This document shows, one piece after another, positions 17,419 to 31,109 of a DNA stretch of 64,000 bases. Made by a program: the position numbers and the translations under genes. Position 1 is the stretch's first letter, and every line of letters begins with the position of its first letter. Under the pieces are notes generated by a model. The model saw only the letters and a list, made by a program, of their open reading frames with translations. It was not told the DNA's origin and did no database searches. Location: contig NZ_FWFR01000001.1 of the NCBI RefSeq assembly GCF_900172325.1, forward strand, positions 1,814,335 to 1,878,334, read 5' to 3'. The DNA is from Oceanibacterium hippocampi (lineage in GTDB: Bacteria > Pseudomonadota > Alphaproteobacteria > Sneathiellales > Sneathiellaceae).

Positions 17419-18591
17419 CTAGAGACCGAGACTGCCGCCGATCGCGTTCCGGTACAGTCCGGCGAATGCCGCGGCGTCGACCGGGCGCGGATTGGTCGGC
17501 GCGGTCGGATCCTTCTCGGCCATCCTGGAGAACGGCTCGGCATGTTCCTCGCTGACGCCGATATCGGCCAGCGTTGCCGGAATGCCGATCGTCTCCCTGA
17601 GCTCGATGACCCAGTCCAGCACGCCGGTGAAATCGGCCCGTACGAGGCCGAGATAGCGGGCCAGCCGGGCCATCTTCCCATCGATCGCGTCGCGGTTGAA
17701 GGCGAGCACGTAGGGCATGACGACGCCGTTGGTCAGGCCGTGATGGGTGCCGAGCACGGACGAGCAGGGATGGCTCAGCGAATGCATCGCGCCGAGCCCC
17801 TTCTGGAACGCCGTGGCGCCCATCGAGGAGGCGATCAGCATGTGGCTGCGGGCCTCGATATTGCCGCCGTCGCGGACCGCGGTGACCAGCCATTCCTTGC
17901 AGAGCCGCATGCCTTCCAGCGCGATCCCGTCGGCCATCGGGTGATAGAGCGGGCTGCAATAGGCCTCGAGATTGTGGCTGAGCGCATCCATGCCGACGGC
18001 GGCGGTGATCGGCGCCGGCAGGCCGGTGGTGAGCTCCGGGTCGGCGATCACGATCGCCGGCAGCATCTTCGGATGGAAGATGATCTTCTTGGTATGGTCG
18101 CCGAGGTCGGTGATGACCGAGGATCGGCCGACCTCCGAGCCGGTCCCGGCGGTGGTCGGCAGCGCGATCACCGGCGCCATCCCGGCGACGTTGACGCGCG
18201 TGTACCAGTCCTCGCGATCCTCGAAATCCCAGATCGGCCGGTCCTGGCCGACCATCAGCGCGACCGCCTTGGCGGCATCGAGCGCGGAACCGCCGCCGAA
18301 GGCGATGACGCCGTCATGGCCGCCGTCCCGGTAGACGGCGACACCGGCGCTGACATTGGCCTCGACCGGGTTCGGCTGGACCTCGGAGAAGACCGCGACG
18401 GCGAGCCCGGCATCGCGGCAGAGCGCGACCGCCTCGGCGATCATCGGCAGCTTCGCCAGGGCCGGGTCGGTGATGAGCAGCGGCCGCGCCATGCCGAGCT
18501 CGCGGCAGGCGGCGGGCAGTTCCTTGAGCCGGCCGGCGCCGAAGCGCATCGCGGTCGGGTAGTTCCAGTTGCCTTTGAGGGCGTTCGCCAT
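17419..18591 (-). CDS. Iron-containing alcohol dehydrogenase
   Basis: A 390-residue group III (Fe-type) alcohol dehydrogenase. The start MANALKGNWNYPTAMRFGAGRL leads into the dinucleotide domain with AFGGGSALDAAKA. The C-terminal all-helical domain carries the metal site. ALSHNLEAYCSPLYHPMADG holds the first ligands and HSLSHPCSSVLGTHHGLTNG supplies the two histidines. The ATG at 18591 has AGGAA upstream and lies 11 bases behind an aldehyde dehydrogenase gene. Together they would oxidise a primary alcohol to its acid. A hydroxy-acid such as 4-hydroxybutyrate is one possibility, since relatives act on it, but the substrate is not resolved here. Confidence 0.88.
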   Translation of the reverse strand: MANALKGNWNYPTAMRFGAGRLKELPAACRELGMARPLLITDPALAKLPMIAEAVALCRDAGLAVAVFSEVQPNPVEANVSAGVAVYRDGGHDGVIAFGGGSALDAAKAVALMVGQDRPIWDFEDREDWYTRVNVAGMAPVIALPTTAGTGSEVGRSSVITDLGDHTKKIIFHPKMLPAIVIADPELTTGLPAPITAAVGMDALSHNLEAYCSPLYHPMADGIALEGMRLCKEWLVTAVRDGGNIEARSHMLIASSMGATAFQKGLGAMHSLSHPCSSVLGTHHGLTNGVVMPYVLAFNRDAIDGKMARLARYLGLVRADFTGVLDWVIELRETIGIPATLADIGVSEEHAEPFSRMAEKDPTAPTNPRPVDAAAFAGLYRNAIGGSLGL

Positions 18592-18602
18592 GACCGCGGT
18601 TC

Positions 18603-19997
18603 CTACTTGTTGCCTTCGCGCATGTGGAAGCTCTTGGGCCGCGTCAGATGCTCGTATCCGACGCGGGACAGCGTGCAGCCGCGCCCCGAATCCTTGACGC
18701 CCACCCAGGCGAGCGCCGGATCCAGGTAGTCGCAGCGGTTCATGAACAGGGTGCCGGTCTGGACCTCGTCGCCAAGCGCGAGGCCGGCATCGAGATCGCC
18801 GGTCCAGATCGAGGCGGTCAGGCCGTAGGGCGAATCGTTTATCAGTTCGAGCGCTGCCGCGTCGTCCGGAACCTTCATGATGCCGACCACCGGGCCGAAG
18901 CTCTCGTCCCGCATGACCGACATCTGGTGGTCGACGTCGATCAGCACCTGCGGCGCCAGGTAGGGCGTGCCGTCGGCGTTGGCCGGGAAGTGGCCGGGAT
19001 CGATCAGCGCCCGGGCGCCGGCCGCGGTCGCCGCGCGGACCTGCTCGCGCACCGCGTCGGCGGCGCTGGTCCGGACCATGGGGCCGAGATTGACCGACGG
19101 CTCCAGCGGATTGCCGAGACGGTAGCCGCGCACGGTTTCCGCGAAGGCCTCGGTGAAGCGGTCATAGAGCGCCTCGTGCACGTAGATCCGCTCGATGCCG
19201 CAGCAGCTCTGGCCGCTGTTGAAGAAGGCACCGTCGACCAGGTTCTCGACCGCGAAATCGAGGTCGGCGTCGGCCCGCACATAGGCCGGATCCTTGCCGC
19301 CGAGCTCCAGCCCAGTGGCGATGAAGCGCTGCGAGGCCGCCGCCTGGATGCGGTGGCCGCCGCCGACCGAGCCGGTGAACGAGACGTAATCGACGCCGTC
19401 GGCGGCGATCAGGGCCTCGGTCGTGGCATGGTCCAGGTTGATGTTGCGGAACAGCCCGGCCGGCAATCCGGCCTCGGCGAAGGCGGCCGCGAAGCGTTCG
19501 CCGCAAAGCGCGGTCTGGGCCGAATGCTTGAGGATGACCGCGTTGCCGGCGAGCAGCGCCGGGACGATCGAGTTCACCGCGGTCAGGTAGGGAAAGTTCC
19601 AGGCCGGGATCGAGAGCACGACGCCGAGCGGCTCGCGGCGGATGAAGCGGGTGAAGCCCGGGATCTCGCCGACCCGGACATCGGCCAGCGATTCCGCGGC
19701 GATGGCGATCATGTGGCGGGCGCGTTCCTCGAAGCCGCGAAGTTCGCCCGGCGACTGCGAGATCGGCCGGCCGATCTGCCAGGTCAGTTCCTCCGCGATG
19801 GCCTCGCCGCGGGCAAGGAAGGCGTCGACGAAGCGGCCGAGCAGGGCGGCCCGCTCGCCGACCGGGCATTTCCGCCAGGCGACCTGGGCGACCCGCGCCC
19901 TCGCGACCGCCTGTTCGGCCTCGGCCAGTGTTGCAAGCGGACGCTCGGCATAGACCGAGCCGTCCACGGGCGTGATCAGGCGCAACGATTCCGCCAT
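18603..19997 (-). CDS. NAD(P)-dependent aldehyde dehydrogenase
   Basis: A 464-residue aldehyde dehydrogenase. The ATG at 19997 has AGGGGAA upstream. The longer frame to 20042 lacks such a site. The general base glutamate lies in LELGGKDPAY and the nucleophilic cysteine in FNSGQSCCGIERIYV. NAD-binding features include IPAWNFPY and FTGSVGGGH. Cofactor choice and substrate cannot be set with confidence. It is transcribed directly ahead of the iron-type alcohol dehydrogenase, which would make the aldehyde it uses. The pair may work in semialdehyde metabolism, for example succinate semialdehyde, though this is inference. Confidence 0.9.
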   Translation of the reverse strand: MAESLRLITPVDGSVYAERPLATLAEAEQAVARARVAQVAWRKCPVGERAALLGRFVDAFLARGEAIAEELTWQIGRPISQSPGELRGFEERARHMIAIAAESLADVRVGEIPGFTRFIRREPLGVVLSIPAWNFPYLTAVNSIVPALLAGNAVILKHSAQTALCGERFAAAFAEAGLPAGLFRNINLDHATTEALIAADGVDYVSFTGSVGGGHRIQAAASQRFIATGLELGGKDPAYVRADADLDFAVENLVDGAFFNSGQSCCGIERIYVHEALYDRFTEAFAETVRGYRLGNPLEPSVNLGPMVRTSAADAVREQVRAATAAGARALIDPGHFPANADGTPYLAPQVLIDVDHQMSVMRDESFGPVVGIMKVPDDAAALELINDSPYGLTASIWTGDLDAGLALGDEVQTGTLFMNRCDYLDPALAWVGVKDSGRGCTLSRVGYEHLTRPKSFHMREGNK

Positions 19998-20150
19998 GGA
20001 ATTCCCCTGTCGAGACGGCGCCGGCCCGTGCCCGGCCGGCAACGGCTCCTATAGCGCGATTGCCCGGCCGTGACCATAGCCGGCGACGGCCGGCCGGTCG
20101 CGAAAGCGTGACTTGCCGGGCCCGGCCATCCGCCGGAACATCGGGGGATC

Positions 20151-21131
20151 ATGACGCGCGCAACGGCCATTCTCATGGGGTTCCTGTTCCTCGCCATCGG
20201 CGGCGGCGCGGCGGCCCAGCCGGCGCACTGGCAAGGCCAGTGGCCGAACACCGACTTCACCATGCATTCGGTGCCGTTCGAGGAGATCCTTTCCGGCGGC
20301 CCGCCGAAGGACGGGATCCCGGCGATCGACGAGCCGCGCTTCCGGCCCCATGCCGAGGTTACCGACATCGCACCGACCGAGCCCGTCATCGGTCTCGTGA
20401 TCGGCGGCGAGGCCCGGGCCTATCCGCTCCGCATCCTGATGTGGCACGAGATCGTCAACGACGAGATCGGCGGCGTGCCGGTCGCCGTCACCTTCTGTCC
20501 GCTCTGCAATACCGCGCTCGTCTTCGACCGGCGGCTGGACGGCGACGTGCTCGACTTCGGCACGACCGGCAAGCTCCGCAATTCCGATCTCGTGATGTAC
20601 GACCGCCAGAGCGAGAGCTGGTGGCAGCAATTCACCGGCGAGGCGATCGTCGGCCGGATGACCGGCAAGCAGCTGCGGATCCTGCCGTCGCGGCTGGAAA
20701 GCTTCGCGCGCTTCGTCGAGCGGGCGCCGGACGGGCAGGTGCTCGTGCCGAACGGCCGCCATGACCGGGCCTATGGCTTCAACCCCTACGAAGGCTACGA
20801 CAGTCGCCCGGCGCCCTACGAGTTCTTCAAGGGCGACCTGCCGGTCGAGGTCGCGCCGCTCGCCCGCATCGTCGCGGTCGGCGAGGAGGCCTGGTCGCTC
20901 GATCATCTGCGCTCGGTCGGCCAGCTCACGACCGCCGATGGGGTCGAGGTGAGCTGGACCCCCGGGCAGAATTCGGCGCTCGATTCCCGAGCCATCGGCG
21001 AAGGCGTCGACGTCGGCAACGTGGTTGCCCGGCGGCGCGTGGGCGACGGCTGGGAGGACGTGCCCTACAGGCTCGATTTCGCCTTCGCCTGGCGCGCCTT
21101 CCACCCCGACCGGCCTATCGTGAACCGCTGA
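20151..21131 (+). CDS. Secreted DUF3179 domain protein
   Basis: A 326-residue protein with an N-terminal signal peptide of about 22 residues ending near GGGAAAQ. The mature part is a DUF3179 domain, shown by PVIGLVIGGEARAYPL, LMWHEIVNDEIGGVPV, TFCPLCNTALVFDR and SWWQQFTGEAIVG. The CPLC pair might form a disulphide or bind metal, but its role is not known. The family has no assigned biochemical function. The ATG at 20151 is divergent from the aldehyde dehydrogenase gene (start 19997), with about 150 bases between them. A perfect hairpin overlaps its stop codon. Confidence 0.85.
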   Translation: MTRATAILMGFLFLAIGGGAAAQPAHWQGQWPNTDFTMHSVPFEEILSGGPPKDGIPAIDEPRFRPHAEVTDIAPTEPVIGLVIGGEARAYPLRILMWHEIVNDEIGGVPVAVTFCPLCNTALVFDRRLDGDVLDFGTTGKLRNSDLVMYDRQSESWWQQFTGEAIVGRMTGKQLRILPSRLESFARFVERAPDGQVLVPNGRHDRAYGFNPYEGYDSRPAPYEFFKGDLPVEVAPLARIVAVGEEAWSLDHLRSVGQLTTADGVEVSWTPGQNSALDSRAIGEGVDVGNVVARRRVGDGWEDVPYRLDFAFAWRAFHPDRPIVNR

Positions 21132-21224: not shown

Positions 21225-21256
21225 GTGTGCCGGATGTATTGTGAGGGGCGATATTG

Positions 21257-22111
21257 ATGTTCGGCGCGACCAAGACGGCGGCTCCGGGCCGGGCGCATAT
21301 CATCGTGCTCGGGAATGCCAAGGGCGGCTCGGGGAAGTCCACGACTGGCATGCATATCATCGTGGCCCTGCTCTCGCTCGGCTACCGCGTCGCCGCGATC
21401 GATCTCGATGGCCGGCAGAAGACGCTCGGCCGCTATATCGAGAATCGCCGGGATTTCCTCGCCGGCAACGACCTCAAGCTGCCGCAGCCCGAGCTCCGGG
21501 TGATCACGCCGAGCCAGGAATCGGCCGAGGCCGACCGCCAGCGCGACGAGTACGAGCGCTTCGTCGGCGCGCTTGGCGAATTCGTCCCGGCGCATGACTA
21601 CGTGGTCGTCGACTGCCCGGGCGCCGATACCTATATCGCCCGGCTCGGCCATTCCTTCGCCGAGACGCTGGTGACGCCGATCAACGATTCCTTCGTCGAT
21701 CTTGACCTGCTGGCCCGCGTCGACCCGAACAATTACCGGGTCATCGGTCCGTCCTGGTATTCCGAGATGGTGTGGGAGCAGCGCAAGCGCCGGGTCGCCG
21801 TCGACGGCTACAACATCGACTGGGTCGTGGTCCGGAACCGGCTTTCCCATCTCGACGCCCGCAACAAGCGGCGGGTCTCAGGCGTGCTGGAGCAGCTCGC
21901 CCGCCGCATCGGCTTCCGCCTCGCGCCCGGCGTCGGCGAGCGTGTCGTCTACCGCGAGATGTTCCTGAAGGGGCTGACGCTTTCGGACCTCAAGGCCGAG
22001 GGCACCGGCTTCGACATGACGATCTCGAACGTCGCCGCCCGCCAGGAAATGCGGGCGCTGATCCACGCCCTCGACCTGCCCGGCATCGAGGATTACCGCG
22101 AAGCGGTGTAA
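21257..22111 (+). CDS. mipZ: MipZ, ParA-family division-plane positioning ATPase
   Basis: A 284-residue deviant Walker A ATPase. The P-loop is GNAKGGSGKST (residues 18-28), with AAIDLDGRQKTLGRYIENR following, a stretch typical of MipZ rather than ParA. VVDCPGADTYI is the Walker B region. The start is set at the ATG at 21257; a TTG one codon earlier is in frame but less likely. In Caulobacter, MipZ binds ParB at the poles and inhibits FtsZ to place the septum at mid-cell. This gene is monocistronic here with its own promoter, and no parB, parA or ftsZ gene is nearby, as is normal for mipZ. Confidence 0.95.
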   Translation: MFGATKTAAPGRAHIIVLGNAKGGSGKSTTGMHIIVALLSLGYRVAAIDLDGRQKTLGRYIENRRDFLAGNDLKLPQPELRVITPSQESAEADRQRDEYERFVGALGEFVPAHDYVVVDCPGADTYIARLGHSFAETLVTPINDSFVDLDLLARVDPNNYRVIGPSWYSEMVWEQRKRRVAVDGYNIDWVVVRNRLSHLDARNKRRVSGVLEQLARRIGFRLAPGVGERVVYREMFLKGLTLSDLKAEGTGFDMTISNVAARQEMRALIHALDLPGIEDYREAV

Positions 22112-22121
22112 CGCGCGGCCC

Positions 22122-22634
22122 TCACGCCTTCGTCCCGGCCGCGTGCCCGGCCCGCTCATTTCCGTCCTCATTGTCGCCGTCGTCCTCGCCGAGTTCCAGC
22201 AGCGCCGCGTCGAGATGGCGGTTCAGCGCCGCCGTCGTCGTCCGCGCCGCGCCGAGCGCCTCGGGCGGGAACTCGCCCGCCAGCCGTTCGAGCAGCGCCG
22301 CCTCGGCCGCCCGCATCGCCCCGAACAGGCGCACTCCGGCCGGGGTGAGGGCGTAGAGCGGCGAACGCCGGTGCGCCGGGTTGTCCTGGGCCTCGACCAG
22401 CCCGGCGGCGGCCAGCGCATCCATGTTGACCTGGATATGCTGGCGCGACACGCCGCGGGCGCGGGCGATGTCGGGGACCGGACGGGGGCCGTCGCCCAGC
22501 GCCTCCATCACCGCCCGCATCGACGCGTTGACGCCGCTTTCCCGGTGCAGCCGCTCGGCCACCGCCTTCAGCCGGTTGAAGGCGCCGCGGATCTCGCGGA
22601 TCAGGGCGTCGAGGCGGGCGGCGTCCGGGCTCAT
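22122..22634 (-). CDS. MarR-family transcriptional regulator
   Basis: A 170-residue winged-helix regulator. The helix-turn-helix lies around residues 47-75, including DIARARGVSRQHIQVNMDAL, and HRRSPLYALTPAG forms the wing. The long amphipathic C-terminal helix ends in an acidic tail rich in E and D. The ATG at 22634 overlaps the stop of the sterol desaturase gene by four bases, so the two form an operon. The promoter of that operon is covered by two matching palindromes, so this protein probably represses its own operon. The signal molecule is unknown, perhaps a lipid or aromatic compound as for many MarR proteins. Confidence 0.85.
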   Translation of the reverse strand: MSPDAARLDALIREIRGAFNRLKAVAERLHRESGVNASMRAVMEALGDGPRPVPDIARARGVSRQHIQVNMDALAAAGLVEAQDNPAHRRSPLYALTPAGVRLFGAMRAAEAALLERLAGEFPPEALGAARTTTAALNRHLDAALLELGEDDGDNEDGNERAGHAAGTKA

Positions 22635-23509
22635 GGAATATCCGTGCGGGTCGGTTGCGGGGCGAGGGACTGCCCGATTGTAGGGTCTTTGGACGGCCGG
22701 GCGAAGGGCCGGAATGGCAACAACAGCATCCAGAAGAGCGAGGCGGTCGGCTGCCCGCGATACTCGTCGAGGCCGATCGTCATCGTCGCCAGCTCCGGGC
22801 CGGGCTTCTCCCGGTAGGTGCCGAACAGGCGGTCCCAGATCGTGAGCGTCGCGCCGTAGTTGCTGTCGGTCTCCGGCTGCAGGCTGGAATGATGGATCCG
22901 GTGCACGTCCGGCGTCACGATCACCCGGTTGAGCAGGCGTTCGAGGCGGGCCGGCAGGCGGATGTTCGCATGGCTGAAGACCGCGAGCGCGGTGTCGGCG
23001 AGTTCGTAGAGCATCAGCGCCGCCGGCGGCAGGCCGAGCAGGACGGCAGCGCCGATCAGCAGCGGCGCGTTGACGACGAACTCGAGCGGGTGCATGCGCA
23101 CCGTGGTCGAGACGTCGAGCACCGGATCGCTGTGATGAACCCGGTGCAGGCGCCAGAGCCAGGGCACTTTGTGCATGGCCAGGTGGATCGCCCAGGACAC
23201 CAGGCTGCGGGCGAGCAGCGCGGCGACAACGGCGGTCCAGGGATCGATGGGCAGCAGGTTCAGGAGCCCGATGCCGTTGTCCCGGGCGTAGTCGGCCGCC
23301 ATCACGGCGCTGACCGGGATGGCGCCGAGAACAACGATATTGAGCGCCGTCATCGCGTAGTTGCCGGTCCAGCGGCGCCGGCGCCGGGGCGCCTCGGCGC
23401 TGCGCGAGACGACGCCTTCGAGCAGGATCAGCGGGGCGAGCAGACCGAAGAAGACGAGATAGGTGAGGGGCTCCGACTGCACCCTCAGGAAGGCGTCGAG
23501 ACCGTCCAT
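22631..23509 (-). CDS. Sterol desaturase / fatty acid hydroxylase family membrane protein
   Basis: A 292-residue integral membrane di-iron oxygenase-like protein. The eight-histidine pattern is visible: HLAMH (HX3H), HRVHH (HX2HH) and HRIHH (HX2HH). Several hydrophobic helices separate them. The start is set at the ATG at 23509, which has GGAGAA upstream and lies 25 bases after the predicted transcription start. A longer frame would begin at 23557, inside the promoter, and is rejected. The family hydroxylates or desaturates lipids. The bound MarR regulator downstream suggests a lipid or hopanoid response, but the substrate is inference. Confidence 0.85.
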   Translation of the reverse strand: MDGLDAFLRVQSEPLTYLVFFGLLAPLILLEGVVSRSAEAPRRRRRWTGNYAMTALNIVVLGAIPVSAVMAADYARDNGIGLLNLLPIDPWTAVVAALLARSLVSWAIHLAMHKVPWLWRLHRVHHSDPVLDVSTTVRMHPLEFVVNAPLLIGAAVLLGLPPAALMLYELADTALAVFSHANIRLPARLERLLNRVIVTPDVHRIHHSSLQPETDSNYGATLTIWDRLFGTYREKPGPELATMTIGLDEYRGQPTASLFWMLLLPFRPFARPSKDPTIGQSLAPQPTRTDIP

Positions 23510-23523
23510 TGCCGTTCTCCATA

Positions 23524-23569
23524 TTGACAACAATATTGTCAAAATAGGGAATGACAATTACGTTGTCAA
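23524..23569 (-). promoter_or_regulatory. Promoter with two palindromic operators of the desaturase-MarR operon
   Basis: Read on the minus strand, TTGACA (23564-23569) and TATTTT (23541-23546) are separated by exactly 17 bases, an almost ideal housekeeping promoter with a start near 23534. Two palindromes of one design overlap it. One is TTGACAA-N5-TTGTCAA at 23524-23542. The other is ATGACAA-N5-TTGTCAA at 23551-23569, which covers the -35 box. Their centres are 27 bases apart. A dimeric regulator bound at both would block RNA polymerase. The MarR protein of this operon is the natural candidate. Confidence 0.75.
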
Positions 23570-23585
23570 TATCACGGGACGCGAG

Positions 23586-24185
23586 TCAGAGAATGCCGGT
23601 GATGAAACGATCGAGCCGGCTGTCCCGCCGATAGGCCTGGCGGACAAGAAGCGCGGCGAGCAGGGCGGTCAGGGTGCCGCCCGCGACATCGCCGGCATAA
23701 TGCGAACCGACATAGATGCGTGACAGGCCCATCAGGATGGCGGCGGCCAGGTAGGCAAGGCCGCTCCGCCGCAAGCCATTCAGCAGAAAGGCGAAGGCGA
23801 TGGCGAAGGCGGCGGTGGTGTGGTCGGAGGGGAAGGAAAAGTCGTTGCTGCGCGCGGCGATCAGCGTCGTCACGCCGGCGTCGTAGGGCCGGACTCGGTC
23901 AAGGAAGGCCAGGATCAGCAGGTTGATGGCGATGCCGAGCGCGAAGCTCAGGCCGGCGGCGACCAGCACGTGGCGGATGCGCGGCCGCTCGGCCCGGCGC
24001 CACCATTGCGCGGCGACGGAGAGAACGAGCAGGTGGATCCCGATGGCCGAGGTCCAGATCATCAGGAAATCGCCTGCCGCGCTGTGCCCGGCCAGGGCGT
24101 TGATGGCCGCCGTGATCGCCGTGTCGAACTCGTTCAATCGCGCCTGTCGCCTCCCGCCACTACTGCCCGTACCGTTCGGTGACAA
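23586..24185 (-). CDS. PAP2-family phosphatase (undecaprenyl-diphosphatase-like)
   Basis: A 199-residue membrane protein of the PAP2 superfamily with about five helices. The three conserved motifs are present: DRVRPYD as the first, FPSDHTTA as the second and SRIYVGSHYAGDV as the third, holding the catalytic histidines. Such enzymes dephosphorylate undecaprenyl diphosphate or lipid phosphates at the periplasmic face. The first 16 residues are polar and basic, and a shorter start near the LNEFDTAI segment (24137) is possible. It is transcribed toward the sterol desaturase operon, whose promoter lies immediately behind its stop. Confidence 0.85.
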   Translation of the reverse strand: MSPNGTGSSGGRRQARLNEFDTAITAAINALAGHSAAGDFLMIWTSAIGIHLLVLSVAAQWWRRAERPRIRHVLVAAGLSFALGIAINLLILAFLDRVRPYDAGVTTLIAARSNDFSFPSDHTTAAFAIAFAFLLNGLRRSGLAYLAAAILMGLSRIYVGSHYAGDVAGGTLTALLAALLVRQAYRRDSRLDRFITGIL

Positions 24186-24251
24186 GCCTAGCGCGGAAAG
24201 CGGGTTCAGGCGACCGGAACCTCGCCCATGGCGGGAGCCGGGCGGCCGGGA

Positions 24252-25631
24252 CTAGAGGTCGGCCTCGACCCCGCTGGCCTTCAGTTCGGCCGCGAGTTCC
24301 GCCTTCAGCCGTTCGAGCCCGGCCTCGTCGCCGGCCTCGCAGCGGGCGACCAGCACCGCCTGGGTGTTGGAGGCGCGCAGGAGCCACCAGCCGTCCGTGG
24401 TGGTCACCCGGACCCCGTCGATGTCGTTGAAGTCGGCGCCGCGCGCTTTCAACCGCGCCTTGATCTCGTCGGGAACCTTGAACTTCCGGTCCTCGGCGCA
24501 GTCGAAGCGGATCTCGGGCGTGTTCACCACCGGCGCCAGGCCGTCGCGGAGCGCCGCCACCGAGCGGTCCGACCTGGCCGCCAGGTTGAGGAAGCGGACG
24601 CCGACGTAGAGCGCGTCGTCATAGCCGTAATAGCGGTCGGCGAAGAAGATATGTCCGCTCATCTCGCCGGCGAAGGGGCTCTTTTCCTCGACCATCTTCT
24701 TCTTGATCATCGAATGCCCGGTGCGCCACATCAGCGGCTTGCCGCCATGGGCGGCGATGTCGTCGAACAGCACCTTCGAGGCCTTGACGTCGGCGATGAT
24801 CGTCGCTCCCGGGTTCTCGGCCAGCACGTCGCGGGCGAGCAGGGTGATGAGCTGGTCGCCCCAGAGCACGCGGCCCTCGCCGTCGACGACGCCGATGCGG
24901 TCGCCGTCACCGTCGAAGGCGACGCCGAAATCGGCCCCGGTGCCACGCACGGTGCGGATCAGGTCGGCCAGGTTCTCCGGCACCGTCGGATCGGGATGGT
25001 GGTTCGGGAAGGTGCCGTCGATATCCTCGTAGAGCAGCACGTGGCGGCCCGGCAGCTTCGCGCAGATCTTGACCAGCGCCTCGCCGGCGGCGCCGTTGCC
25101 GGCGTCCCAGACGACCGCCATCTCGCGCGGCACGTCGGCGTCCTTCAGGATCCGGGCGACGTAATCGTCCATCACCGGGATCTCGGTCGCCGTGCCGGCG
25201 CCGCTGACCCAGTCGCCGGCGGCGGCCATGCGGCCGAGCTCCTGGATGTCGGCGCCGAAGAACGAGGCCTTTCCGAGCATGATCTTGAAGCCGTTGTGGC
25301 TCGGCGGATTGTGCGACCCGGTGACCATGATGCCGCCGTCGGCATCGCAGTGATAGACGGCGAAGTAAAGCATCGGGGTCGGCCCGCGGCCGATCCGGAC
25401 GACGTCGATCCCGGCCGCGGTCAGGCCCTCGACCAGGGCCGCCTCGAGGTCGGGGGAGGACAGCCGGCCGTCATAGCCGACCGCGACCTTGGCTCCGCCC
25501 TTGCGCGCGACGATGGTGCCGAAGGTCCGCCCGATCGCCCGCGCGTCCGCCGGGCTCAGAGTCTCGCCCATGATCCCGCGGATGTCGTATTCGCGGAGGA
25601 TCGTCGGGTGAAAGTCGTGACGCTCGCTCAT
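24252..25631 (-). CDS. Phosphomannomutase/phosphoglucomutase
   Basis: A 459-residue alpha-D-phosphohexomutase that interconverts hexose 6- and 1-phosphates. The active-site loop TGSHNPPSHNG carries the phosphoserine Ser106. The metal loop is DGDGDRIGV, and the sugar- and phosphate-binding loops near GEMSGH and RASNTQ are present. The start IREYDIRG-like region (LREYDIRGI) is typical of AlgC/ManB enzymes. It is the last of three minus-strand genes, with galU and ugd upstream. Together they turn glucose 6-phosphate into UDP-glucuronate. Whether mannose, glucose or both are used in the cell cannot be told. Confidence 0.92.
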   Translation of the reverse strand: MSERHDFHPTILREYDIRGIMGETLSPADARAIGRTFGTIVARKGGAKVAVGYDGRLSSPDLEAALVEGLTAAGIDVVRIGRGPTPMLYFAVYHCDADGGIMVTGSHNPPSHNGFKIMLGKASFFGADIQELGRMAAAGDWVSGAGTATEIPVMDDYVARILKDADVPREMAVVWDAGNGAAGEALVKICAKLPGRHVLLYEDIDGTFPNHHPDPTVPENLADLIRTVRGTGADFGVAFDGDGDRIGVVDGEGRVLWGDQLITLLARDVLAENPGATIIADVKASKVLFDDIAAHGGKPLMWRTGHSMIKKKMVEEKSPFAGEMSGHIFFADRYYGYDDALYVGVRFLNLAARSDRSVAALRDGLAPVVNTPEIRFDCAEDRKFKVPDEIKARLKARGADFNDIDGVRVTTTDGWWLLRASNTQAVLVARCEAGDEAGLERLKAELAAELKASGVEADL

Positions 25632-29564: not shown

Positions 29565-31109
29565 TCAGACGAAGGCGTCGGGGACGGCCGCTTTCTTCCC
29601 GGCGACGAAGGCGTCGAGCGCTTCCGCCTTGCCCGGGTCGAGGTCCGGCGCCTGGTATTCGGCAAGCAGCTTCTTCCAGCGCTTGTTAGCGCGCTGCGGC
29701 AGATCCATGCCGCCTTCCGCGTCCCATTGCTCGTAGGAATTGTTGTCGGCGATCGGCGAGCGGTAGAAGGCGCTTTCGAAATTCGCCTGGGTATGCGCGC
29801 AGCCGAGATAATGCCCGCCGGGCCCGACCTCGCGGATTGCCGAGAGCGCCTGGCCGTTCTCGCTGGTGTCGACGCCGCCGGCGAGGATTTCCATCATCGC
29901 CAGCTGGTCGGCGTCCATGATCAGCTTCTCGTAGGAGGAAACCAGCCCGCCTTCCAGCCAGCCGGCGGCGTGGAGGGTGAAGTTGACCCCGCCGAAGACC
30001 GTCGGCAGCAGGGTCTGCATGCTTTCGAAGGCGGCCTGTGCGTCGGGCAGCTTGGAGGCGCAGAGCGAGCCGCCGGAACGGAACGGCAGGTTGAGCCGGC
30101 GGGCAAGCTGGGCGGCGCCGAACAGCACCATCGTCGGTTCCGGCGTGCCGAAGGTCGGCGCCCCCGACTGCATCGAGATCGAACTGGCGAAGGTTCCGAA
30201 GACAACCGGCGCGCCGGGCCGGCAGAGCTGGGTGAAGGCCATGCCGGCAAGCGCCTCGGCAAGGATCTGGGTGAGCGTGCCGACGACCGTCACCGGGCTC
30301 ATTGCGCCGGCCAGGATGAACGGGCTGATCACCGTCGCCTGGTTGGCCCTGGCGTAGACCTTGAGCGCGCCGAGCATGGTCGAATCGAAGACCAGGGGCG
30401 AATTCGCATTGATCAGGTTGATCAACACGGTGTTCTGGTCGACGAAATCCCGGCCGAACAGGATCTCGCACATCGCCACCGAATCGGCGGCCCGGTCGGG
30501 CGCCGTCACCGATCCCATGAAGGGTTTGTCGGAATAGCGGATATGGGCATGCACCATGTCGAGGTGGCGCTTGTTGACCGGCAGGTCGACCGGCTCGCAG
30601 ACCGTGCCGCCGGAATGATGCAGCGAGGGCAGGGCGTAGGCGAGCTTCACGAAGTTGCGGAAGTCGGCGATCGTGCCATAGCGCCGGCCACCTTCCAGGT
30701 CGCGCACGAACGGCGGGCCGTAGACCGGCGCGAAGACCGTGTTGCTACCACCGATGGTGACGTTGCGGGCCGGGTTGCGGGCATGCTGGACGAATTGCGA
30801 CGGTGCCGTCTGCAGCAGGGTGCGGCAGAGCCCCTTCGGGAAATGCACCCGTTCGCCCTGGACGTCGGCACCGGCATCGTGCCAGAGCTTCAGCGCCTCC
30901 TCGTCCTCGCGGAACTCGATGCCGATTTCCTCCAGCACCGTGTCGGCATTGGCCTCGATCATCTCCAGCGCCGCGTCGTCGAGGATCTCGGTGAGCGGGA
31001 TCCGGCGCTGGATATAGGGGGCATGGACGGTCGTCGGGTCCTTGCGCGCGGCGTGCCGGGCGTCTCGCCCGCCACGCCGGCCGGCGGATTTCTCTCTCGC
31101 CTCGCTCAT
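29565..31109 (-). CDS. MttB-family (trimethylamine/betaine-type) methyltransferase, non-pyrrolysine
   Basis: A 514-residue protein of the MttB superfamily, which moves a methyl group from a quaternary or tertiary amine to a corrinoid protein. Segments such as YTPPFVRDL-like YGPPFVRDLEGG, VFDSTMLGAL and GAPTFGTPEP agree with the family. There is no in-frame TAG, so it lacks the pyrrolysine of true trimethylamine methyltransferases. Non-pyrrolysine members include glycine betaine methyltransferases. No corrinoid protein or second methyltransferase gene is nearby. A BCCT carrier and a dimethylglycine-type dehydrogenase lie 27 kb away, compatible with a betaine role, but the substrate is unproven. 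Confidence 0.85.
   Translation of the reverse strand: MSEAREKSAGRRGGRDARHAARKDPTTVHAPYIQRRIPLTEILDDAALEMIEANADTVLEEIGIEFREDEEALKLWHDAGADVQGERVHFPKGLCRTLLQTAPSQFVQHARNPARNVTIGGSNTVFAPVYGPPFVRDLEGGRRYGTIADFRNFVKLAYALPSLHHSGGTVCEPVDLPVNKRHLDMVHAHIRYSDKPFMGSVTAPDRAADSVAMCEILFGRDFVDQNTVLINLINANSPLVFDSTMLGALKVYARANQATVISPFILAGAMSPVTVVGTLTQILAEALAGMAFTQLCRPGAPVVFGTFASSISMQSGAPTFGTPEPTMVLFGAAQLARRLNLPFRSGGSLCASKLPDAQAAFESMQTLLPTVFGGVNFTLHAAGWLEGGLVSSYEKLIMDADQLAMMEILAGGVDTSENGQALSAIREVGPGGHYLGCAHTQANFESAFYRSPIADNNSYEQWDAEGGMDLPQRANKRWKKLLAEYQAPDLDPGKAEALDAFVAGKKAAVPDAFV

Follow-up and report, generated by a model that had tools for sequence, protein, structure and literature searches.

The intergenic region upstream of a two-gene operon in Oceanibacterium hippocampi contains a promoter that is overlapped by two matching palindromes, which raises the question of what protein recognizes these palindromes and how far its control extends. 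An initial annotation of the 64,000-nucleotide stretch of DNA that we analysed (the window) had proposed a simple self-regulated lipid-modification switch operated by the MarR-family regulator that the operon encodes. To address this question, we combined direct reading of the sequence with comparative searches of 385 genomes of the class and 299 genomes of the phylum, and with structure prediction of the regulator. We assign a probability of roughly 0.85 to the reading that MarR binds both palindromes and represses the promoter of its own operon, such that a ligand would set the level of an FA_hydroxylase-family enzyme together with that of the repressor, with a PEMT-like methyltransferase gene on another contig probably co-controlled.

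The minus strand of the window carries a TTGACA-N17-TATTTT promoter overlapped by two TGACAA-N5-TTGTCA palindromes, located at 23525-23541 and 23552-23568, with centres at 23533 and 23560 that are 27 bp apart. Direct reading and a promoter scan confirm the initial claim of a promoter covered by two matching operators at this distance. The upstream operator, op1 (23551-23569; TTGACAACGTAATTGTCAT on the minus strand, ATGACAATTACGTTGTCAA on the plus strand), contains the -35 box as its left arm, and its assignment is supported by an exact match in the genome-wide search and by conservation of the pair in relatives. The downstream operator, op2 (23524-23542; TTGACAATATTGTTGTCAA on the minus strand and, on the plus strand, the perfect palindrome TTGACAACAATATTGTCAA), covers the final bases of the -10 box together with the expected transcription start, which we infer to be near 23534 inside op2. 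Sequence and promoter scan place the -35 hexamer TTGACA at 23564-23569 and the -10 hexamer TATTTT, separated from it by 17 bp and conserved in position among relatives, at 23541-23546, both on the minus strand, and a Shine-Dalgarno-like GGAGAA at 23515-23520 of that strand precedes the ATG of the first gene by 5 nt. The promoter matches at 10/12 (shuffle mean 0.1), and a weaker overlapping match on the same strand (23557-23530) reaches 9/12. With up to three mismatches allowed, the 19-mer occurs at just these two places in the window, while 100 shuffles gave a mean of 0.25 and reached two sites in 2 of 100 cases. A genome search for further TTGACAA-N5-TTGTCAA sites, as had been proposed, finds exact TTGACAA-N5-TTGTCAW nowhere beyond this pair.

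From translation, the first gene of the operon (22631-23509, minus strand) encodes a 292-residue enzyme of the FA_hydroxylase family (PF04116; 111.5 bits against a Pfam cut-off of 31) and the second (22122-22634, minus strand) a 170-residue MarR-family regulator with a predicted winged-helix fold (PF12802; 35.9 bits against a cut-off of 27), with the two coding sequences overlapping by ATGA. The initial annotation had the MarR gene second and overlapping the stop of a desaturase; the order and the overlap stand, but “desaturase” is too specific for a match to FA_hydroxylase, which we take to be a superfamily of hydroxylases and desaturases. The di-iron histidine motifs of this superfamily are HX3H, HX2HH and HX2HH, and inspection of the translation by eye located HLAMH, HRVHH and HRIHH. 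The only NCBIfam match of the enzyme up to E 0.1 is OlsE, an ornithine-lipid hydroxylase of the same superfamily (NF052566), but with 74.9 bits against a cut-off of 475 the enzyme is not OlsE by that model. A reading frame of 466 codons (22122-23522) would lengthen MarR at its upstream end, but it overlaps the FA_hydroxylase gene and was taken as a high-GC artefact; in three relatives (L028, L030 and L031) the MarR frame starts at the residue matching the proposed first residue of the window MarR.

An AlphaFold2 monomer model of MarR has a mean pLDDT of 85.6, with residues 153-170 below 50, and predicts a winged-helix fold with flanking helices whose top Foldseek matches are MarR structures. 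The MarR-family protein SP03579 (solved structure 3bj6) is closest both by profile (E 3e-20) and, using the model, by fold (30% identity, TM 0.75/0.82). Because the window protein has no cysteine, thiol oxidation is unlikely as its signal, and OhrR-type sensing through a reactive cysteine was ruled out; 10 of 13 relatives in the same alignment have one or two cysteines. Autorepression by MarR proteins is already known. MarR sites have been described as palindromes of 16-20 bp that overlap the -10 or -35 box (PMC7432914; also PMC5487221), and the palindromes upstream of this operon, which measure 17-19 bp and lie over such boxes of the operon's own putative promoter, look like sites of this type.

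Whether the operator belongs to this MarR subfamily was addressed with relatives gathered by protein similarity alone, and with a profile of eight of them that was run against the 385 genomes of the class and detected 55 places in 50 genomes at E up to 1e-15. The 55 loci examined consist of 47 of these places (window included), plus five and a further three (G014, G016 and G020) from protein similarity searches; the omitted places are one in each of G247, G282, G185, G398, G110 and G361, two in G315, and the weaker ones from the similarity searches. A site with at most one mismatch within 1 kb upstream of MarR is present in 14 of the 15 loci (window among them) with a profile score of at least 150, in 15 of the 23 that score 90-150 and in 0 of the 17 below 90, and two or more sites are present in 13 and 2 loci of the first and second group, respectively. 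The 15 top-scoring loci include the eight from which the profile was made, which were chosen by protein homology and not by sites. Control stretches of about 1 kb that begin 200 bp downstream of MarR have sites in 0, 1 and 0 loci of the three groups, and shuffling gave means of 0.02, 0.05 and 0.01 loci. The sole exception among the closest loci is L081, which has a close MarR and a methyltransferase neighbour yet no site at up to one mismatch. Additionally, four loci counted as lacking a site (L089, L097, L098 and L101, the last scoring below 90) have an exact site directly behind MarR, in the gap that was not counted, with a PEMT-like gene on that side. At the level of whole genomes, the exact palindrome occurs in 20 of the 50 genomes with this MarR versus 15 of the 335 without it (counted by eye; odds ratio 14, Fisher p 3e-11). 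The arrangement is real because the same layout recurs in relatives from other bacterial orders, and the initial proposal that MarR regulates itself through both sites gains strong comparative support, with the pair accompanying the MarR subfamily in different orders and also beyond the class.

The spacing of the pair is tied to the promoter. Counting sites with up to two mismatches, provided that at least one site of a pair has at most one, there are 19 pairs among the 55 loci, 13 of which are spaced at 26-27 bp. Five further pairs (L154, L155, L162, L189 and L190) all share this spacing and bring the count to 18 of 24, with exceptions at 20 bp (L034, L087 and L088), 24 bp (L029), 37 bp (L038) and 45 bp (L085). 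Starting one base ahead of the upstream palindrome, the hexamer reads TTGACA in 17 of the 18 pairs, versus 7 of 18 on the mirror side. The hexamer that ends on the first T of op2 reads TA...T in 14 of 18, whereas a TA start occurs at op1 in 2 of 18 and on the opposite strand in none of the 18. Because the left arm of op1 doubles as the -35 box and the first T of op2 is the last base of the -10 box, the operator spacing equals the promoter spacer plus 10, with spacers of 16 bp at 26-bp pairs and 17 bp at 27-bp pairs. The -10 hexamers fit TATAAT moderately, with a summed score in 13 pairs that is higher than at op1 (Wilcoxon p 0.02) but not clearly higher than on the other strand (p 0.18). Judged from this register, operators and promoter are one unit, and they illustrate cleanly the joint evolution of repressor sites and promoter.

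Plain autorepression by MarR dimers on two operators is the most likely mechanism suggested by these comparisons. MarR made from the second gene would bind the two 17-bp palindromes as dimers and shut off its own promoter, with op1 spanning the -35 box and op2 the last part of the -10 box plus the transcription start. Repressor and RNA polymerase would exclude each other because the operators lie over these elements. MarR would be released (or bound more tightly, as with FabT) in response to a ligand, probably a membrane-linked compound of lipophilic or acyl type, which in this way would set the level of the FA_hydroxylase-family enzyme as well as that of the repressor itself, and the same MarR probably also controls the PEMT-like methyltransferase gene on another contig.

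Several other explanations have to be weighed against autorepression. The intergenic stretch is AT-rich and lies beside GC-rich genes, a setting in which matches may arise by chance, but the shuffles, the exact genome-wide search and conservation across orders leave chance with a negligible probability. The promoter could be merely apparent, with TTGACA being an operator arm, the -10 box an AT-rich flank and the real promoter elsewhere; TTGACA does lie within the palindrome, so that its resemblance to the -35 consensus cannot count as independent evidence. However, the excess of TTGACA on the promoter side over the mirror side, along with the directional TA start of the -10 hexamer, makes such an explanation unlikely. 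The palindromes might instead be operators of a different transcription factor that has MarR as just a neighbour, as could be argued from the 15 genomes that hold the exact palindrome without a MarR match at E 1e-15, one of them (G336, L162) as a pair before an FA_hydroxylase gene. Against this, the sites track the MarR subfamily through differing gene arrangements and become scarcer with growing distance from that subfamily, and the reversed control pattern alone matches 12 of 385 genomes (counted by eye). Additionally, eight of the 15 were inspected with flanks (the others being G030, G084, G261, G044, G194, G236 and G091), and in seven of these eight the site is single and unaccompanied by any of five target families. 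We regard control by a different factor as very unlikely.

A related concern is that MarR does bind, but acts mainly as a road-block to read-through from an upstream gene or as an activator. A PAP2-family phosphatase gene (23586-24185) on the strand of the operon ends at 23586, at a distance of 16 bp from op1, and a search of 21800-24400 revealed no terminator-like site, so that read-through into the operon is possible. However, the 15 relative loci tested have no PAP2 homologue, a result that also led us to reject the PAP2 gene as a component of the unit, and 14 to 17 of the 18 pairs preserve the promoter register. Sites over the -35 box, the -10 box and the start moreover favour repression (PMC5487221, PMC7432914), and on this basis we infer repression rather than activation and consider the road-block or activator role quite unlikely.

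A comparison of gene orders indicates that the operator follows the target and not a fixed order of genes. It precedes MarR where MarR comes first (for example L028-L032, L078, L080 and L083), precedes the FA_hydroxylase gene where that gene comes first (the window, L033, L075, L076, L077 and L079), and is present once between the divergently oriented MarR and FA_hydroxylase genes of L082 and L084. In the stretches fetched for the 55 loci, FA_hydroxylase adjoins MarR in 8, a PEMT-like methyltransferase is near MarR in 10, and a class I methyltransferase is downstream of MarR in 9, with weaker methyltransferase matches in 5 more. A small membrane-like protein with no Pfam match (about 93 residues in L033) follows MarR in L029, L030, L031, L033, L075, L078, L080 and L189 and may belong to the same regulon. 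A nucleoside hydrolase-family gene is also near MarR in four relatives, L031 (PF01156), L034, L078 and L087.

The operator also occurs away from MarR. Pairs precede an FA_hydroxylase gene (L155) and a class I methyltransferase gene (L154) on contigs other than that of MarR, which, because the assemblies are drafts, means several kb away or more with no fixed distance. In the genome of the window, a single one-mismatch site (C13:12338) on a contig other than that of MarR lies 38 bp before the ATG of a PEMT-like gene, the product of which scores 54.7 bits for PF04191 (cut-off 25). This gene (L002:977-1462; G000:C13:11817-12299) is divergent to a GntR/UTRA regulator gene. Because the reversed control pattern at one mismatch also gives two sites in this genome, the PEMT site rests on recurrence in relatives; G180 (one mismatch) and G049 (two mismatches) likewise have a single site before a PEMT-like gene that is on a different contig from MarR, and six of the 13 scanned PEMT-like loci (L170, L173, L177, L178, L180 and L181) have no site at up to two mismatches. 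The PEMT-like gene is probably a second target of the window MarR. A further one-mismatch site in the genome (C6:832050, L001) is inside a 644-codon open frame and was taken as chance. The genome's second FA_hydroxylase gene (C16:139467, L095) has no site at up to one mismatch in 8 kb, its best upstream match having five mismatches, and the class I methyltransferase found after MarR elsewhere has no close counterpart in this genome (best E 5e-9, 33%, partial). Among 15 further sites examined with flanks, one of the five target families is adjacent in four (L154, L155, L159 and L162), and none is within the stretch tested for the other 11 (L156-L158, L160, L161 and L163-L168), which probably represent chance or other regulation.

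The simple switch of the initial annotation is consequently too narrow, given that the same operator also precedes a PEMT-like gene on another contig and targets elsewhere. Because the operator lies in the operon's own promoter and sites precede targets on other contigs, the autoregulated operon probably belongs to a small regulon of enzymes with a probable role in lipid modification. Lipid modification itself, as initially suggested, is plausible from the families concerned (FA_hydroxylase, PEMT-like and class I methyltransferases), though these do not pin down a specific substrate.

Homologues of the FA_hydroxylase at E 1e-40 or better are present in 24 of 25 genomes of the order. The window enzyme shares 49-58% identity with seven of the nine other copies that carry an operator, 39 and 41% with L079 and L084, respectively, and 35-45% with copies of its own taxonomic family. 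In a tree of 25 FA_hydroxylase proteins, one branch with 100/100 support splits the 10 operator-bearing copies from 15 without an operator, the latter being 14 of the family's copies and the genome's second copy L095; this places the window copy outside the family's set but does not imply one origin of the operator, because all 15 operator-free copies come from one family. Good support is confined to seven of the tree's 22 inner branches, and the L079 row is long and oddly composed. The simplest reading of these relationships would be horizontal acquisition, or an old paralogue that has been lost in other lineages. Among the 299 genomes of the phylum, three passed E 1e-25, namely the window's own and two outside the class. 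One of the latter (L189) has the exact pair at 27 bp before MarR, with MarR, the small membrane protein and a class I methyltransferase in a row, and the pair of the other (L190), also spaced at 27 bp, has two mismatches in its upstream site and a -10 hexamer, AATAAT, that lacks the initial TA. Searching the orders that contain G087 (2 genomes), G183 (10) and G146 (2) by profile recovered only members already known. It is an even bet that two palindromes, with a 26-27 bp spacing fixed by the promoter boxes, form with this MarR subfamily a cassette that is set before different membrane-modifying enzymes in separate proteobacterial lineages, and thus an undescribed lipid-remodelling regulon that has spread partly horizontally.

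Of the systems with which this one can be compared, FabT is, by analogy, the nearest working analogue. The FabT regulon involves control of fab genes with acyl-ACP as co-repressor, and its palindrome differs from TGACAA-N5-TTGTCA. FabT of streptococci and enterococci resembles the window regulator in being a MarR repressor that is encoded inside the operon it represses and has lipid enzymes as targets (PMC13046290, PMC5487221). The FabT-DNA structure 6jbx is among the Foldseek matches of the modelled window MarR at 14% identity. However, the regulator gene is first in the FabT operon and second here, and the targets in the window system are FA_hydroxylase, PEMT-like and class I methyltransferases. 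Corynebacterium CrtR, a MarR-type protein that responds to isoprenoid diphosphates, is autoregulated and binds over the -10 and -35 boxes of a lipid-pathway promoter and over the -10 box of its own promoter (PMC6739363, PMC7432914). CrtR differs in having divergent genes with carotenoid genes as targets, and in a TTAA-centred motif in which its authors did not find inverted repeats (PMC6739363). The kind of system is known, while this member, its operator and its regulon were not found in the open PMC literature, among the matches listed and as far as their excerpts extend. The comparison yields a sharp, searchable operator and a probable regulator for probable membrane enzymes (FA_hydroxylase, PEMT-like and class I methyltransferase) in the class and beyond, and the apparent co-control of these enzymes makes the question of their substrates testable.

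The surroundings of the operon include additional genes. An aldehyde dehydrogenase gene (18603-20042) is downstream of the FA_hydroxylase and MarR genes on the same strand, and a similar frame is downstream in L076 of G087, the genome whose FA_hydroxylase is the closest found (58%). Also nearby are genes for an iron alcohol dehydrogenase (17419-18591), a DUF3179 protein (20151-21131) and MipZ (21254-22111), and a gene of the trimethylamine methyltransferase family, MttB, is located at 29565-31109 of the window.
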